From positions 496,001-560,000 of the forward strand of contig NZ_JACHMN010000001.1 in NCBI RefSeq assembly GCF_014204945.1: DNA of 64,000 nt, in the 5' to 3' direction. Origin of the DNA: Allocatelliglobosispora scoriae (lineage in GTDB: Bacteria; Actinomycetota; Actinomycetes; Mycobacteriales; Micromonosporaceae). Positions 1-18,789 of this stretch are shown piece after piece (the first letter of the stretch is position 1; each line of letters opens with the position of its first letter). Below the pieces are notes generated by a model. It was not told the origin of the DNA and ran no database searches. It worked only from the letters and a program-made list of their open reading frames with translations. Position numbers and translations under genes: made by a program.

Positions 1-995
1 ATCCAGTGCGGCGGCGAGGCGATGCCCGCCGACCTGCCGCAACGCGTCGCCGACGTGCTCGGGGTGCCCCTCTACAACATGTACGGTCCGACCGAGACCG
101 CCGTCGACGCCACCCAGTGGCTCGTCGGCACCGGCACGCAGCCGCGGATCCCGATCGGGCTGCCGGTGCCGAACATGCGCGCCTACGTCCTCGACACCGA
201 CCTGCGGCCGGTCGCCGACGGCGGCACCGGGGAGCTCTACCTCGCCGGGGCGCAGCTCGCCGACGGCTACCTGCGGCGGCCCGCGCTCACCGCGCAGCGG
301 TTCACCGCCGACCCGTTCGGGCCGCCCGGCAGCCGCATGTACCGCACCGGCGACCTCGCGACGTGGCTGCCCGGCGGGGTGCTCGACCTGGTCGGGCGCG
401 CCGACGACCAGGTGAAGATACGGGGCTTCCGGGTCGAGCTCGGCGAGGTCGAGACGGTCCTGCGCCGCCTGCCCGGTGTCACCGACACCGTGGTGGTGCT
501 GCGCGAGGACCGCCCCGGCGACCGGCGCCTCGTCGCCTACACCACCGGCACCGCCGACCCGGCCGACACCCGCCGGGCCGCCGCCGCGCACCTGCCCGAA
601 CACATGGTGCCCGCCGCCGTCGTGGCGATGGGCGCCCTGCCCACCCTGCCCAACGGCAAGACCGACCGGGCCGCGCTGCCCGCACCGGAGCTGCGCGCAG
701 CCGCCGGACGGCTGCCGACCGGGGACGACGAGCAGACCCTCGCCCGGCTCTTCGCCGAGGTCCTGGGCCTGCCCGACACCGAACCGTTCGGCGCCGAGAC
801 CAGCTTCTTCGACCTCGGCGGGCACTCGCTGCTCGCCGCCCGCCTGATCAGCCGGGTCCGCTCGGTCTTCAGCGTGGAACTGCCCATCCAGACCGTCTTC
901 GAGACACCGACCGTCGCCGGCCTCGCCCAGTGGCTCGGCCACGCCGAGAAGGCCCGCCCCACCTTGCGCCGCCGGACGGCGCAGAAGGAGACATC

Positions 996-999
<4 letters not shown>
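1..999 (+). CDS. NRPS, 3' part of an A-PCP module (partial)
   Basis: The reading frame is open from base 1, so the gene begins outside the window. The visible protein is the end of an adenylation domain (A5-like YGPTET, TGD, core NGKTDR) followed by a peptidyl carrier protein whose GGHSL motif gives the phosphopantetheine serine at visible residue 276. This module activates an amino acid as an adenylate and loads it onto the carrier. Only part of the pocket code is visible (Q, G, M, V, D at the positions equivalent to GrsA 299, 301, 322, 330, 331), so no substrate is assigned. The stop overlaps the next start as ATGA at 996-999, indicating translational coupling within one NRPS operon. Confidence 0.95.
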
Positions 1000-4142
<3,143 letters not shown>

Positions 4143-4144
4143 TC

Positions 4145-8511
<4,367 letters not shown>

Positions 8512-8515
<4 letters not shown>

Positions 8516-9279
8516 CCGGCACCTGCACCGAGATGGCCTGGGAGTCGGTCGACCTGACCGGCGCGACGGCGGACCTGCCCGTCGCGGTCGGCGGCTCGGT
8601 CGCACCGCACCGGCTGCTCGAGGCCTACCGGCACGGGGCGTTCCCCTACCCGAGCAGCGGTGACTACGCGGCCGAGGTCAACCGGGCGCTCTACGGCGAC
8701 CACGTCGAGGACGGGGTGATCACGGCGTTCCCCGGCACCGACCCCTACGCGGTGACGTGGTGGAACCCGCCGCAGCGCCCGGTGATCCCGGCCGGCGGCC
8801 TGCACCTGTCGCGCAACCTGCGCCGGGACCTGCGCAACCGGCACCCCTGGACCACCACCTGCGACCACGCGTTCACCGAGGTCGTCCAGGAGTGCCGGCG
8901 GCACCGCAGCAGCCGGTGGCTCACCGACGAGCTGTGCGACTCGCTGCTCGCCCTCTACGACGCGGGCTGGGCGCACAGCGTCGAGGTATGGCACGGCGAC
9001 GAGCTGATCGGCGGGCTCTTCGGCACCGGGATGGGCCGGGTCCACGGCGTCGACTCGGCCTTCACCCGCGTACCGGACGCCGGGAAGGTCGCGTTCGCCG
9101 ACCTCGCGGCCCGGCTGCCCGGTGAAGCGCTGATCGACGTGCAGGTGACCAGCGACTACACCACGGCGCTGGGCGCCCGGCCGATCGACCGCGCCGACTA
9201 CCTGGCCGCACTGCGCGATGTGGATCTGCCGCTCATCCCGGCGATGGGCGTCCGCTTCGCCTCAGCCCTGGCCGGGTGA
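8512..9279 (+). CDS. Leucyl/phenylalanyl-tRNA-protein transferase (Aat)-like aminoacyl transferase in the NRPS operon
   Basis: A 255-residue protein similar along its length to bacterial Aat, which moves Leu/Phe from tRNA to N-terminal Lys/Arg of proteins. Family blocks seen are YRHGAFPYP, WWNPPQRPVI, LHLSRNLRRDL, WLTDEL, AHSVEVW, IGGLFG and the catalytic block IDVQVTSDYTTALGA. The D-x-Q pair of the catalytic block is kept, but the Glu of the usual GESMF block is Asp (VDSAF) and the usual NDH is SDY. The GTG start overlaps the NRPS stop (GTGA, 8512-8515), so it is co-translated with the assembly line. Inference: it adds an amino acid from aminoacyl-tRNA to the peptide product rather than acting in N-degron labelling. 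A displaced housekeeping aat is the alternative. Confidence 0.85.
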
Positions 9280-9286
9280 CCGCACA

Positions 9287-9333
9287 CGTGACCGGGGTGC
9301 GCACGGTGATCGTTCGCCGTCGCCCCGGTCACG
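9287..9333. terminator. Convergent hairpin terminator
   Basis: An 11-bp perfect stem (CGTGACCGGGG at 9287-9297 with its complement at 9323-9333) with a shorter inner helix. It lies between the end of the Aat-like gene and the end of the opposing methyltransferase gene, and its right arm overlaps that gene's stop codon. Confidence 0.6.
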
Positions 9334-10078
9334 CGGCGGGCTTCTCCCAGACCGAGACGTGCCGGGCGCTGTCGGCCGTGAACGGCTCGCGGTTCCACCC
9401 GCCCCAGCGCTCCCGCAGCCGCAGCCCCGCGATCCGCGCCATCAGGTCCAGCTCCGCGGGCCACACATACCGGAACGGAACCGACCGGTAATCCCCGCGC
9501 CCGTCCACGACATCGATGTAGTTGGAGCTCATCTCCTGCGTCACGAGGTCGTAGCGGTCGAACGCCCACCCCGTCGCATCCGCGCGGAACGGCACCACGT
9601 CCTGCCCCACCGGCAGTTTCCGCAGCTCCGGCACCATCACCTCGACCACGAAGCAGCCGCCCGGCGCCAGGTGCGCGGCCGCGTTGCGGAAGCACTCGAC
9701 CTGCCCGTCCTGCGTGGTCACATTCATGATCGTATTGAAGACGAGGTAGGCGAGCGAGAACGACCCCTCCACCCGGGCCGTCGTGAAGTCGCCGATCGTC
9801 ACGCCGATCGCGTCGCCGCCGGGCTTGGCCCGCAGCCGGGCCACCATCGCCCGCGACATGTCGATCCCGTGCACCTCGACCCCACGGGCCGCGAGCGGCA
9901 GCGCGATCCGCCCGGTCCCGACCGCGAGTTCCAGCGCGCGACCTCCCCGGGCCAATTCGGCCAGTACGCCGACGGTCGCCCCGATCACCTCCGGCTGGTA
10001 CTCCGCCGACGTGCCGTCGTCGTACTTCGCCGCCACCCGCTCACCGAAGTAGCCGTCCTCATCAGTCACGGCCGTCAC
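9329..10078 (-). CDS. Class I SAM-dependent methyltransferase
   Basis: About 249 residues with a Rossmann methyltransferase core: motif I ALELAVGTGRIALPLA (residues ~48-63), acidic motif II HGIDMS, post-motif GDFTT and LAPGGCFVVEV. The methyl acceptor cannot be read from sequence. A GTG start at 10078 overlaps the upstream dioxygenase gene by 17 bases; a second GTG at 10069 is also possible. Sharing an operon with a PhyH dioxygenase and facing the NRPS operon, it could be a tailoring enzyme, but the opposite strand and intervening terminator mean it may be unrelated. Confidence 0.85.
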   Translation of the reverse strand: MTAVTDEDGYFGERVAAKYDDGTSAEYQPEVIGATVGVLAELARGGRALELAVGTGRIALPLAARGVEVHGIDMSRAMVARLRAKPGGDAIGVTIGDFTTARVEGSFSLAYLVFNTIMNVTTQDGQVECFRNAAAHLAPGGCFVVEVMVPELRKLPVGQDVVPFRADATGWAFDRYDLVTQEMSSNYIDVVDGRGDYRSVPFRYVWPAELDLMARIAGLRLRERWGGWNREPFTADSARHVSVWEKPAA

Positions 10079-10838
10079 CGTACCCCTCCAGACTCTCGAC
10101 GATGGCCCGCGCGACCGGCGACGGATCGGAGCCGTCCAGGGCGAACCCGTCGAGGACCTCCACCCCCGGCTGCGCCATCATCCGCGGGACCGTCCCCCGA
10201 TGCGGCCACGTCGCGGTGTGCACGACGAACGGGTGGCACAGGAAGACATCACCGGCGGCACCCGTCGCCTCGACCGCGCGGCGGCACAGCACCGACGGGC
10301 GCAGCCGCTTCACCGCGTCGTCACCCGGCATACCACGCTCGCCGCCGGGGGCGAGCAGCGGCGGGATGAAACGGTGCGAGCCCGTCACCAGCCGGGTGGG
10401 GGCGTCGTCGGGTCCGACATCGGAGAAGAGGAACAGCGCGAGCAGCCCCCGGCCCCGCGACCGCACGTTCGTCCAGTAAGCACCGCCGTCGACCTCGTAG
10501 CTGCCCTCGATGTGGTAGCCGACCTCACCGGGGTACTCCTCGGTCGGGAACCGCACCGGGATCGTCCCGCCGACCCCGCCGCGCTGCGTCCACCGGCCCG
10601 CGCCGATGAGGATGTCGTAGGCGTCGCTCAGCGCCGGTGCGGTCCCGGCGGTGACGAACGGCCCGCCCTCGGGGCAGTCGATCCGCAGCGCCGGACGCGT
10701 CCAGGTCGCCGGGTCGCGGCCGATGCCGTGGGCGGCGAGCTCCGACCAGATCACCTCGCGGCACGCGGCGGCCGTCCCGGCGTCGAAGGCACCCCGCACC
10801 ACGGTGTAGCCGTCGCGTACGAAGCCGTCGACATCCAT
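10062..10838 (-). CDS. Phytanoyl-CoA dioxygenase (PhyH)-type Fe(II)/2-oxoglutarate oxygenase
   Basis: About 258 residues starting MDVDGFVRDGYTVVRGAF, a typical PhyH-family opening; the frame is open further upstream but the ATG at 10838 fits the family start. The double-stranded beta-helix core shows GYHIEGSY, LFLFSDVGPDDAPTRL, TGSHR, the distal His in HPFVVHTA and the 2-oxoglutarate Arg in VPRMM. The proximal iron motif is H-x-E rather than the usual H-x-D of PhyH. Expected reaction: hydroxylation of a small molecule using oxygen and 2-oxoglutarate. The 3' end overlaps the methyltransferase gene, so the two are probably one operon. Substrate unknown. Confidence 0.85.
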   Translation of the reverse strand: MDVDGFVRDGYTVVRGAFDAGTAAACREVIWSELAAHGIGRDPATWTRPALRIDCPEGGPFVTAGTAPALSDAYDILIGAGRWTQRGGVGGTIPVRFPTEEYPGEVGYHIEGSYEVDGGAYWTNVRSRGRGLLALFLFSDVGPDDAPTRLVTGSHRFIPPLLAPGGERGMPGDDAVKRLRPSVLCRRAVEATGAAGDVFLCHPFVVHTATWPHRGTVPRMMAQPGVEVLDGFALDGSDPSPVARAIVESLEGYGDGRD

Positions 10839-10942
10839 CCGCCGATTGTGCGCGCGGCTCGCGCCCCGGTCATCCGATTTAGTCCGGCCACCGGCAGTGC
10901 ATACGATATGGCTGCCGATCAATCGAACAAAGGTGGCACCCC

Positions 10943-11554
10943 TTGGTCACACGTCTGCGGTCCGCCGTGGTTCTGGCGACGGCGGTCCTCAGCCTCGCCG
11001 GGTGCGCCTCGGAAGGAGACAGGCCGGTCGCGGGTGCCGATCCGGCGAAGGCCGGTCCGCAGGGCGAGGTCGGACCCCGCTCCGCCGCACCGGACAGCGG
11101 TGCCGTGCCGACGGGCACCCCGACCGCCTCCGCCCCGGAGGATCCCCTGGAGGCACTGCGGCAACGGCTCGTCACCGCGCTGCGCGCCGCGGACCCGGGC
11201 GCCGCAGCAGGCACCCTCACCGTCGAGCAGCGGCCCGCGGCGGAGAACCAGCTCGTGATCACCTGGACGGTCAACACCGACCCCTCCGACACGACGGCCC
11301 GGGCCCGGGTGCGGCTCGACGCGATCGCACTGCTCCAGGCCGTCAAAGGCGTCTCGATGGGGTACGGAACGGTGCTGCTCATCGCCACCGGCGCCGTGCT
11401 GGACAAGAACGGCATCGAGACCGAGGCCAAGGTCGTGCGGGCCAAATACTCCCGGCAGCTCATCGCCCGGACGGACTTCACGAAGGTCTCTCCCGAGCAG
11501 GTCCTGGCCCTCCCGGACGACAAGCCCGCCGACATCCACCCCGCCTATCGCTGA
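10943..11554 (+). CDS. Secreted lipoprotein, function unknown
   Basis: A 203-residue protein with a lipoprotein signal peptide (hydrophobic stretch, lipobox LSLAGC, cysteine at residue 21), then a Pro/Ala/Thr-rich linker to about residue 65. A compact domain follows with alternating strands and helices (QLVITWTVN, ARVRLDAIALLQAV, KVVRAKYSRQLI). The start is TTG at 10943 with AAAGGTGG upstream. It is divergent from the PhyH/methyltransferase pair across about 100 bases. No family is recognised; it should be anchored to the outer face of the membrane after lipidation. Confidence 0.8.
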   Translation: MVTRLRSAVVLATAVLSLAGCASEGDRPVAGADPAKAGPQGEVGPRSAAPDSGAVPTGTPTASAPEDPLEALRQRLVTALRAADPGAAAGTLTVEQRPAAENQLVITWTVNTDPSDTTARARVRLDAIALLQAVKGVSMGYGTVLLIATGAVLDKNGIETEAKVVRAKYSRQLIARTDFTKVSPEQVLALPDDKPADIHPAYR

Positions 11555-11579
11555 CCGGCGACGCCATAGGATCGGCGGC

Positions 11580-12326
11580 ATGGCACTGCGACCCGTCCAG
11601 GTGAACATCAAGGCCGTCGACACCGCCGAGGTCGGCCGGTTCTGGGCGGCAGCGCTCGGCTGGGCGGTCACCGGCGGCACACCCGGCGTGACCAGCTACG
11701 TCGCCCCCGTCGGCGACTTCGTCTGGCCGGACCCGGTCGTCCTCGGCATCGACGTCGTCTCCGTCCCCGCGCCCAAGACGGCGGCGAAGAACCGGGTGCA
11801 CCTCGACCTCGCCACCACGTCCGCGGCCCATCAGGCGGAGCTGGTGGCACGCCTGCGGGCGATCGGTGCGACACCCGCGGACGTAGGTCAGGGGAGCAAC
11901 GTGCCGTGGACCGTTCTCGCCGACCCGGAGGGCAACGAGTTCTGCGTGCTGGAGCCGCGCGAGGTGCACCGGGACACCGGGCCGATCGCCGTCGTGGTCG
12001 TCGACTGCGCGGATCCGCGGGCCATGGCCCGGTTCTGGGGTGCGGCGATCGACTGGACGCTGCACGAGGCGACCGACGAGCACGCGGTGCTGCGCAACGC
12101 CGACAACACCGGCCCGTACCTGGAATTCCTCCGCACGCCCGGCGGGAAGACCGCGCCGGACCGCATCCACCTCGACCTGCTGCCCTACCCCGGCGACGAC
12201 AGGGCGGTGGAGGCGGACCGGCTGCGGGCACTCGGCGCCACCGACCTCGACATCGGCCAGGGCGACGCCCCGTGGACCTGCCTGACCGACCCCGACGGCC
12301 ACGAATTCTGCGTCCTGGCCCCGTAA
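11580..12326 (+). CDS. Tandem VOC (glyoxalase/bleomycin-resistance-like) protein
   Basis: 248 residues made of two vicinal-oxygen-chelate halves (about 1-125 and 130-248). Each half has the opening pattern FWAAALGW / FWGAAIDW, a HLDL strand (NRVHLDLA / DRIHLDLL), and the closing pattern DPEGNEFCVLEP / DPDGHEFCVLAP. VOC proteins are metal-binding isomerases, dioxygenases or drug-binding proteins; the double form resembles actinobacterial glyoxalase-like proteins of unknown substrate. It lies 25 bases after the lipoprotein gene on the same strand. Confidence 0.88.
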   Translation: MALRPVQVNIKAVDTAEVGRFWAAALGWAVTGGTPGVTSYVAPVGDFVWPDPVVLGIDVVSVPAPKTAAKNRVHLDLATTSAAHQAELVARLRAIGATPADVGQGSNVPWTVLADPEGNEFCVLEPREVHRDTGPIAVVVVDCADPRAMARFWGAAIDWTLHEATDEHAVLRNADNTGPYLEFLRTPGGKTAPDRIHLDLLPYPGDDRAVEADRLRALGATDLDIGQGDAPWTCLTDPDGHEFCVLAP

Positions 12327-12351
12327 TCCCGCGCTGGTACGCTTCCGCGCT

Positions 12352-13314
12352 ATGTCCCTCCCCTCCGACATGAACCTCGCCTGGGCCGACCCCGCACTGC
12401 AGCGCGCGGCCGTTGCGCTCGCCGACGGCGCCCCCGGCCAGGCACGGGACCTCCTCGCCGCGACGACCGACCCCGACCGGCGCGAGCTCTACGTCTCGGT
12501 GCTGGGCGACGCCGGCCGGCACCAGTTGAAAGCCCTGCGCGAGCTGGCATCGGACGCCGGCGACGACCCGCACGCGTTGCTGCTGCTCGGTTCCGCCCTG
12601 GGCTTCGCCGCGTGGGCCGCCCGCGGCGCCGCGACGATGGACCACACGGCCGAGGACCAGGTTCAGGGCATGCTCGGGTTCGCCGCGCAGTCCCGGACGA
12701 TGCTGGGCCGAGCCGCCGCCCTGGCCCCCGACGACCCGGCGCCCCTGGTAGCGCTGATGAGCGTCGTCAAGGCGGCGGCGACCGACCGCCACGAACCACA
12801 CCGGCTGTTCAAACAGGTGGACGCGCTCGCCCCCGACTCGTTCATGGGCAACCAGCAACGGCTGAGCATGCTGTGCCGCAAGTGGTACGGCAGCACCGAG
12901 CAGATGCTCGGCTTCACACGTGAGCGCGTCGCCCTCCTTCCCGACGGGCACCCGCTGCTGTCGCTGGTGCCGCAGGCCCACATCGAGGTCTGGGTCGACG
13001 GGTGGATGGAGGGCAACTTCGCCGGCCGGATCTACCGACGGTTCACCTACGGCCCGCTGAAGCGCGCAGCCGTCCGCGACGAGGTGGACCGGGCGTCGGA
13101 CCGGATGCTGGCGGGCGCGGCAGCGTTCGCCGACCACCCGTGGGCGATGATGGCGCACCAGATGTTCGGCGCCTACTACGCCCACGCGGGGGCGAAGGCC
13201 AAGGCACGGGTACACCTCGAGCGCGGCGGCGACCGCGCATCGGAGTGGCCGTGGGGATACTTCGGCGACGCCTCCGTCGAGCTGCAGAACGCCCGCAGCG
13301 CCGCCGGCCTGTAA
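12352..13314 (+). CDS. Alpha-helical repeat protein, function unknown
   Basis: 320 residues, almost wholly helical, with TPR-like pairs such as AVALADGAPGQARDLLAA and ARVHLERGGDRASEWPWGYFG at the ends and a central block around MLCRKWYGSTEQMLGFTRERV. There is no signal peptide or membrane segment, so it is likely cytosolic. It follows the VOC gene by 25 bases and is probably co-transcribed. I do not recognise a characterised family; a scaffold or protein-binding role is only suggested by the repeats. Confidence 0.75.
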   Translation: MSLPSDMNLAWADPALQRAAVALADGAPGQARDLLAATTDPDRRELYVSVLGDAGRHQLKALRELASDAGDDPHALLLLGSALGFAAWAARGAATMDHTAEDQVQGMLGFAAQSRTMLGRAAALAPDDPAPLVALMSVVKAAATDRHEPHRLFKQVDALAPDSFMGNQQRLSMLCRKWYGSTEQMLGFTRERVALLPDGHPLLSLVPQAHIEVWVDGWMEGNFAGRIYRRFTYGPLKRAAVRDEVDRASDRMLAGAAAFADHPWAMMAHQMFGAYYAHAGAKAKARVHLERGGDRASEWPWGYFGDASVELQNARSAAGL

Positions 13315-17577: not shown

Positions 17578-18789
17578 GTGAGGGTGAAGCTGGTCGTGCA
17601 GGTAAAACTGCTTCCGACGCCCGAACAGGTGTCGGCTCTGGAGTCGACTCTGCGTGCCTGCAACACTGCTGCCTCGGAAGTCGCCCGGGTCGCCCGCAAC
17701 AGAGGCGTCTACCGTAACTACGACCTGCGTAAGTACGTCTATCAGAACATCAAGGACAACCACCGGCTCGGTGCGCAGGCCGCGCAGCACGTCATTAAGA
17801 AGGTCTGCGACTCGTACAAGGCCCTGAAGGCCAACATTCGGGCGGGGAACCTCGGCAGGCCAGGGTCGAAGCGGCGGCGCAGGGCCGAGACCGACCCGAT
17901 CAGCTTCCGGTGGGAAGCCGCACAGCCCTACGACGCACGGATGCTTTCCTGGCAACGCAACGCGCGCACCGTGTCCATCTGGACAGTCGCCGGGCGCCTC
18001 AAGGGCGTCGCGTACGCCGGGTCGCCGGACGGGCTCAAGGCCGTCGCGGAACTCCCGGTCGGTGAGTCCGACCTGGTCCACCGCGACGGCATGTGGTTCC
18101 TCCACACGACTGTCGAGGCCGCCGAGCCCGAGCTAGTCGACCCGAAAGGGTTCCTCGGCATCGACATGGGCATCGCGAACATCGCCTACGACTCCGACGG
18201 TGACCGGTACGCCGGGACCACCCTCAACAGCTACCGCCGTCGGCAACTGCGGCTACGTCAACGGTTGCAGCGTAAGGACACCAACTCCGCGCGCAGGCTG
18301 CTCGCCCGGCGTCGGCGCAAGGAAGCGCGGCACGCCGCGAACGTCAACCATTGCATCGCGAAGACCATCGTGACCAAGGCTGAACGCACCGGTCGAGGTA
18401 TCGCCGTCGAAGACCTGACGGGGATCCGCGAACGGGTCCGGCTCCGCAAGCCCCAACGGGTCACGCTGTCCTCATGGTCGTTCCACCAGCTCGGCGAGTT
18501 CCTGACCTACAAAGCCCGCCGCGCCGGTGTACCACTGGTCGAAGTCGACCCCCGGTACACCTCCCAGACCTGCCACCGGTGCGGCCACCGCGATAAGCGA
18601 AACCGAGTCGACCAGGAAACCTTTAACTGTCGGTCGTGCGGGGTCGTTGCCCACGCCGATCACAATGCGGCCCTCAACATCGCCTCGCGTGGTGTCGAGG
18701 CCGGGGCGCAGTCAACCGCCCGCACGCGGCCTGACCTCGCAGCCAGCGAGGGAGGTGACCTGCAAACCCGCCCATTCACAGGCGGGTAG
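17578..18789 (+). CDS. tnpB: TnpB RNA-guided nuclease (transposon protein)
   Basis: A 403-residue TnpB. An N-terminal Orf_B_N/WED-REC region opens MRVKLVVQVKLLPTPEQ. The RuvC nuclease has all three acidic residues: Asp196 in LGIDMG, Glu278 in AVEDL and Asp361 in HADHNAALN. Between them is a four-cysteine zinc finger (Cys332, 335, 351, 354: CHRCG...CRSCG). TnpB proteins are RNA-guided DNA nucleases, ancestors of Cas12, using a guide made from the element's right end. The length and full active site suggest it is intact. GTG at 17578 is used because an ATG two bases earlier meets an immediate stop. Confidence 0.93.
   Translation: MRVKLVVQVKLLPTPEQVSALESTLRACNTAASEVARVARNRGVYRNYDLRKYVYQNIKDNHRLGAQAAQHVIKKVCDSYKALKANIRAGNLGRPGSKRRRRAETDPISFRWEAAQPYDARMLSWQRNARTVSIWTVAGRLKGVAYAGSPDGLKAVAELPVGESDLVHRDGMWFLHTTVEAAEPELVDPKGFLGIDMGIANIAYDSDGDRYAGTTLNSYRRRQLRLRQRLQRKDTNSARRLLARRRRKEARHAANVNHCIAKTIVTKAERTGRGIAVEDLTGIRERVRLRKPQRVTLSSWSFHQLGEFLTYKARRAGVPLVEVDPRYTSQTCHRCGHRDKRNRVDQETFNCRSCGVVAHADHNAALNIASRGVEAGAQSTARTRPDLAASEGGDLQTRPFTGG

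Follow-up and report, generated by a model that had tools for sequence, protein, structure and literature searches.

A divergent aminoacyl-tRNA transferase coupled to a three-module reductase NRPS in Allocatelliglobosispora scoriae: a possible tRNA-dependent step in a peptide aldehyde pathway

In Allocatelliglobosispora scoriae, a divergent Aat-like gene is translationally coupled to a nonribosomal peptide synthetase (NRPS) line that ends in a reductase (R); it was analyzed within a 64,000-nucleotide stretch (contig NZ_JACHMN010000001.1, positions 496,001 to 560,000), hereafter the window. We give about even weight to the reading that its product is a recruited Aat inside a nonribosomal peptide aldehyde pathway, where it would add an amino acid from tRNA to the basic aminoacyl-S-PCP of the starter module, so that a four-residue aldehyde ending in serinal would result. 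The general idea of a repurposed Aat is supported here and is already published in kind for livipeptin (PMC10548850, in its available text). What is new is the layout of the line to which the Aat is coupled: it has three modules, contains condensation (C) domains (A-PCP / C-A-PCP / C-A-PCP-R) and begins with a C-less, basic-type starter.

The gene encodes 255 amino acids from a GTG start at 8512, and the bases GTGA (8512-8515) are common to this start and the TGA stop of NRPS3; the four-base overlap and the Aat-like nature of the protein, both put forward in a preliminary description of this DNA, were thus verified. The protein matched Pfam PF03588 at E 1.6e-42 (145.3 bits, cut-off 22.7) and scored 131.6 against the NCBIfam aat equivalog TIGR00667, under the cut-off of 143.55, which makes it a member of the family but no clear housekeeping ortholog. 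Its nearest solved structures by sequence are those of E. coli Aat (about 35% identity). The AlphaFold2 model (36-row alignment, mean pLDDT 93.2) matched E. coli Aat 2z3k over 216 residues (Z 25.8, rmsd 2.1), which argues for the proposed reading; across 2z3k, 2dps and 2cxa (Z 25.2-25.8) the fold, D186 and Q188 are shared, while W49, G155, E156, M158, F153 and H193 are changed (E. coli numbering, via alignment).

FemX takes its amino acid from aminoacyl-tRNA, and the model also matched its fold in part (Z 11.1-11.6, about 10% identity). A further partial match was to the aminoacyl-tRNA-dependent peptide synthases Sbb17/Sba18 (PDB 9wqw-9wqy; Z 12.4-12.9, 14-16% identity), whose donor is aminoacyl-tRNA according to the PDB entry titles. 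Unlike the window protein, these belong to families other than Aat, and by title what their solved complexes contain is a small molecule (streptothrisamine) or peptidyl-RNA, and no NRPS carrier protein. The preliminary description had mentioned tRNA-dependent amide formation in other natural product pathways by other enzyme folds; the idea of the route stands, but a route with the Aat fold itself is already in print (livipeptin, PMC10548850, available text).

Plus-strand genes run in the order mutS-mutE-asnA-glt, transporter, MbtH-like, NRPS1, NRPS2, NRPS3, Aat, with the start of NRPS1 ~1.07 kb upstream of the window (Table 1). NRPS1 opens with an A domain and is therefore a starter module without a C domain; the terminal thioester reductase of NRPS3 scored 297 bits against TIGR01746 (cut-off 213.35). 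Aat is the final gene of this row, and possible tailoring genes follow on the minus strand.

Table 1. Features of the NRPS row and its surroundings. Plain positions refer to the window; locus L045 is G000:C1:488001-507000, and window position equals L045 position minus 8000.
Feature	Position	Strand	Basis or remark
MutS-like glutamate mutase part	L045:1311-1874	+	upstream of window
MutE-like glutamate mutase part	L045:1568-3169	+	upstream of window
Asparagine synthetase A, AsnRS-related kind	L045:3180-4163	+	upstream of window
Protein with glutamate synthase / FMN dehydrogenase matches	L045: about 4163-5431	+	upstream of window
Membrane transporter	L045:5428 to about 6717	+	named MFS by eye
MbtH-like protein	L045:6733-6927	+	recognised by eye
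NRPS1, condensation-less A-PCP starter, C-terminal part in window	1..999	+	A code DVEDQGMVD; whole gene L045:6930-8999
NRPS2, C-A-PCP	996..4142	+	Pfam; A code DALQMAGGL
NRPS3, C-A-PCP-reductase	4145..8515	+	Pfam; TIGR01746; A code DVWHFSLVD
Aat-like gene (Leu/Phe-tRNA-protein transferase family)	8512..9279	+	PF03588, NCBIfam, structure model, tree
Methyltransferase, convergent with aat, putative cluster member	9329..10078	-	daptide N-methyltransferase model is best curated relative, far below cut-off
PhyH-like dioxygenase candidate, overlaps methyltransferase, putative cluster member	10062..10922	-	PF05721 27.0 bits, cut-off 22

A codes were read by HMM scan from 77 A domains. In the livipeptin-type loci the A domain before the reductase carries DTED(I/V/L)GA(I/V)T, read whole in 30 of 31 and as two agreeing pieces in the 31st (L073). 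The starter code of the window has Glu239 and Asp278 in common with these codes, the rest differing in part, and both residues together occurred in just one of the 19 A domains, duplicates removed, that have a C domain upstream; a C-less starter with this pair argues for the proposed reading. Several other A domains for which no C domain was found upstream carry different codes (a crude sorting by tblastn), arguing against a simple rule. The Dactylosporangium/Catellatospora-type lines have a C-less starter code DAESFGDIS (4/4), which resembles Lys codes; this starter lies 18-29 kb away from aat, and further C-less A domains occur in its vicinity. DVWHFSLVD of NRPS3 is the serine signature. A literature search for six exact A codes found none of them.

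Under the proposed reading, the starter A domain of NRPS1 would load a basic, Arg-like amino acid on its own PCP, and Aat would move one amino acid from aminoacyl-tRNA to the free amine of this PCP1-bound residue, as canonical Aat acts on N-terminal Arg or Lys of proteins. The dipeptide would pass to module 2, whose residue perhaps comes from the mutS-mutE-asnA-glt cassette (e.g., 3-methylasparagine), and on to module 3 (Ser), where reductive release would yield an aldehyde, roughly aa(tRNA)-basic-X-serinal. NRPS reductases can release alcohols too. The livipeptin Aat, proposed to act on arginine, would be the analogue of the Aat step (PMC10548850, available text). The likely acceptor would be the basic amino acid on the starter PCP, not a finished aldehyde.

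Aat could instead act later, passing the tRNA amino acid to a released tripeptide aldehyde or to the chain N-terminus on a later PCP, which we consider unlikely but deserving of real weight. Coupling of aat to NRPS3, the reductase-bearing last module, and not to NRPS1 fits such late action, as does the habit of canonical Aat of working on free N-termini of finished chains. However, the livipeptin-type coupling is to a single C-less module, where the position of aat is uninformative on timing, and a free peptide aldehyde is reactive.

Livipeptin of Streptomyces lividans 66 (genes Sli0883-Sli0885, MIBiG BGC0001168) is the closest described system. Its three proteins are an L/F transferase, an A-PCP-R that lacks a C domain and whose A domain is predicted to take Arg, and an N-acyltransferase; the transferase is proposed as a stand-in for a condensation domain (PMC10548850, available text). 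In cell-free mixes all three proteins were needed for the protease inhibitor and RNase suppressed the activity, which argues for a tRNA-dependent Aat step in the window too; the chemical structure of livipeptin is not solved in the available text of that report. Among 1246 actinobacterial genomes the same text finds 137 L/F homologs, of which 33 fall in a natural-product clade, some being NRPS-fused, and the words Micromonospora, Dactylosporangium and "multimodular" are absent from its main text as available. Livipeptin clusters have been noted in two Micromonospora genomes (PMC5765111, available text). In a literature search judged by titles and abstract openings, we recognised no description of an Aat with a C-containing NRPS line.

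The window resembles livipeptin in four respects: i) a divergent L/F transferase lies directly behind, and is coupled to, a terminal-reductase NRPS; ii) the Asp/Gln residues are kept; iii) the acceptor module would be a C-less A-PCP with a Glu/Asp-type code; iv) a peptide aldehyde is expected. On the other hand, livipeptin has a single A-PCP-R protein and no C domain, whereas the window has three modules, two C domains and the mutase/AsnA/Glt cassette, and the N-acyltransferase, O-methyltransferase and acyl-CoA dehydrogenase of livipeptin have no counterpart in the same place. A livipeptin-type tRUE would combine an NRPS-linked-clade Aat, its position directly behind a reductase NRPS, a C-minus partner NRPS and an N-acyltransferase next to aat; the window has the first two, but NRPS1 alone is C-less and no N-acyltransferase was found beside aat among the genes scanned by Pfam.

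A role in self-protection, in which Aat would tag or inactivate something (e.g., cap the product or its cellular target) and take no part in chain-building, is very unlikely. Its place as last gene of the plus-strand NRPS row, with possible tailoring genes next on the minus strand, would suit such a role, but two in-frame Aat-NRPS fusions among the 34 reductase-linked loci speak against it, and so does the need for the livipeptin Aat for inhibitory activity to form (PMC10548850, Table 1, available part).

For the Aat tree (71 proteins, 221 columns), the patterns used to find rows were built on NRPS-linked members, a choice that biases the set towards that clade; gene neighbours played no part. 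The window Aat fell in a clade of 36 (support 98/98) together with four Dactylosporangium/Catellatospora-type and 31 livipeptin-type proteins, so that the phylogeny called for in the preliminary description placed it among NRPS-linked Aat. All 36 clade genes lie near NRPS genes; in 31 cases the Aat immediately follows a single-module A-PCP-reductase. Seven canonical Micromonosporaceae Aat fell among other housekeeping-type rows (100/99); forcing the window Aat together with them was rejected (p-AU 0.0005), while joining it to the 31 livipeptin-type rows was not (p-AU 0.51). Clade membership and the rejected housekeeping placement argue for the proposed reading. The window branch is long (0.81), and 45% of 200 bootstrap trees gave one origin for all NRPS-adjacent rows. 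A Micromonospora-group Aat downstream of a multi-module NRPS (L031:9649-10443; 36% identity to the window Aat) falls outside the clade of 36, has a very long branch and may be a separate recruitment.

Within Micromonosporaceae, PF03588 was found in 23 of 354 genomes. The 24 matches fall into a canonical set (12, at 225-238 bits) and a divergent one (12, at 129-143 bits, window included). Flanks were compared for every other divergent locus (11) and for seven of the canonical 12, and NRPS domains occurred in 11/11 versus 0/7. In the 9.15-Mb genome of A. scoriae the window Aat was the sole match of a PF03588 profile search, and thus no second, housekeeping aat was found. That the gene is the genome's housekeeping N-degron enzyme, standing behind the NRPS by chance, is hardly tenable: being the sole PF03588 protein and keeping D186 and Q188 would suit that role, but the tree rejects grouping with canonical Micromonosporaceae Aat, E156D and the loss of W49 mark the NRPS clade, and with 331 of 354 family genomes lacking a match, a housekeeping Aat is not the rule in Micromonosporaceae.

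Beyond the family, PF03588 was present in 111 of 396 genomes of a phylum sample, and 51 of 394 genomes of a class sample matched the window Aat at E 1e-30 or better. From a wider contig scan, 80 of 575 relatives among the matches listed were kept. It gave at least 29 clade loci with flanks (L046-L074; 4/29 repeat genomes already counted), and among these matches listed NRPS domains lay near aat in 29/29, with A and R domains directly upstream in 27/29; L075 was cut by a contig end. Seven Frankia-like or actinobacterial MAG loci (L076, L078, L082, L083, L106, L117 and L124), some with short flanks, showed no NRPS domains. Among five class-sample loci, L213 proved to be an A-PCP-R/Aat pair and L214-L217 had no NRPS domain. 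One of these, L214:6722-7510 (G1063), encodes a livipeptin-like Aat that by eye looks to belong to the clade. A DNA methylase, a peroxidase and a transporter are encoded next to it, its 19-kb stretch holds no NRPS domain, and its genome gave no reductase-covering match. A plasmid search for livipeptin relatives matched 38 records, and the 30 matches listed were all Gram-negative Aat (28-35% identity).

The pairing of Aat with a reductase NRPS, which the preliminary description proposed to look for elsewhere, therefore recurs in 31 further non-duplicate loci and in L213 and is not unique to this genome; together with the rejected canonical grouping it supports the earlier view of a repurposed Aat beside an NRPS. 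Among 34 reductase-linked loci (2 duplicate records included), two are in-frame fusions and 32 have a candidate Aat start at -7 to +13 of the NRPS stop, in 25/32 at -4. This tight coupling or fusion throughout, with the four-base overlap in the window, argues for the proposed reading. A search of the 4.5 kb upstream of each reductase showed a C domain in 1/34, the window only.

The roles of D186, Q188, E156, W49 and the aminoacyl pocket are taken here, by assumption, from the canonical enzyme. Every Aat group keeps D186. Q188 is retained by the window protein and 31/31 livipeptin-type rows, and 4/4 Dactylosporangium/Catellatospora-type rows have Glu instead. The change of Glu to Asp in the GESMF block, reported in the preliminary description, corresponds to position 156 and turned out to be characteristic of the NRPS-linked clade, with Asp in the window, 31/31 livipeptin-type and 3/4 Dactylosporangium/Catellatospora-type rows, versus Glu in L031, 6/6 Frankia-like, 7/7 canonical and 43/43 non-actinobacterial rows. 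No NRPS-adjacent row keeps W49 (Tyr in the window), but the residue is Trp in 5/6 Frankia-like, 7/7 canonical and 43/43 other rows. The NDH to SDY change near D-x-Q, also described earlier, is real, its His to Tyr part (H193Y) being uncommon in the clade: livipeptin-type rows have His in 27/31 and Tyr in 2/31, and Dactylosporangium-type rows have His in 0/4. F153H was seen in the window alone and stands beside G155V and M158A; with the pocket so different from that of E. coli, Leu or Phe as donor is uncertain.

The Aat subgroup with Gln188 changed to Glu (L034:9541-10386, L035:9542-10336, L036:9665-10459 and L037:9665-10459) and the C-A-PCP NRPS gene beside it are encoded on different strands, with no reductase found nearby; its chemistry is possibly changed.

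Several points weigh against the proposed reading: i) the starter and livipeptin codes agree in part only, and Arg is itself a prediction for the latter; ii) C domains are present for both NRPS junctions, so that Aat is not strictly needed; iii) the aminoacyl pocket is non-canonical; iv) no N-acyltransferase was found among the neighbouring genes scanned by Pfam (9218 to 13314); v) no close ortholog of the window cluster was found, so that the three-module architecture rests on one genome; vi) the clade-like Aat of L214 has no NRPS domain in its 19-kb stretch and no reductase-covering match in its genome.

With confidence a little short of even, we propose jointly that i) an Aat can open a multi-module NRPS by placing a tRNA amino acid on the basic aminoacyl-S-PCP of a C-less starter, after which ordinary C domains extend the chain; ii) the combination of a C-less, Glu239-type starter plus Aat holds in at least three architectures, namely the livipeptin A-PCP-R, the three-module aldehyde line of the window and the Dactylosporangium/Catellatospora lines (Aat with Glu for the catalytic Gln); and iii) the changed pockets take tRNAs other than Leu/Phe. 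The published account of livipeptin is of a small system lacking C domains, and the window locus suggests that the same tRNA-dependent step can also be joined to an ordinary multi-module line. If so, predictions from NRPS module counts alone would come out one residue short, and Aat might be usable as a portable part for N-terminal elongation. Genomes could be mined for a C-less starter module of the Glu239 type together with an Aat that has Asp at E. coli position 156.

The mutS-mutE-asnA-glt cassette (L045:1311-5431) recurs in Micromonosporaceae (L126-L145; L157-L162): asnA matches of at least 427 bits were found in 27 of 354 genomes (31 matches), and within short flanks glt stood beside asnA in 20/20 loci and mutE in 18/20. 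A second copy in the window's genome (C3:854243) adjoins another NRPS, and three of six other copies examined (L158, L161 and L162) had no NRPS domain. The module 2 code resembles DALQMGGGF (L157) and DALHMGGIF (L160) of A domains near other copies, so that module 2 may load the cassette product, perhaps 3-methylasparagine; the NRPS-linked copy L159 has no module-2-like code. A literature search found no relevant account of a mutase/AsnA/Glt cassette.

As for dedicated tRNA supply, ARAGORN found no tRNA gene in the window or in 16 loci (L025-L040). A class II synthetase-like protein (L026:13180-14163) was considered as a cluster-borne tRNA-charging enzyme; it scores as asparagine synthetase A (442 bits, cut-off 368) and its cassette is found in genomes without this Aat, and therefore it was not read as such. 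A 450-aa stand-alone condensation-domain-like protein (L026:6120-7472, minus strand), upstream of a large LuxR-type regulator and the cassette, might be a cluster member. The genome holds a second stand-alone A-PCP-reductase, livipeptin-like in layout (G000:C1:246958-249912; L219, L222), without its own Aat, rejected as a partner for the window Aat on its non-basic A motif (FDAATLELW). Finally, a TnpB/IS605 OrfB-like protein with a Pfam Cas12f1-like TNB domain (window 17578-18789, plus strand) lies between the cluster and the next genes.
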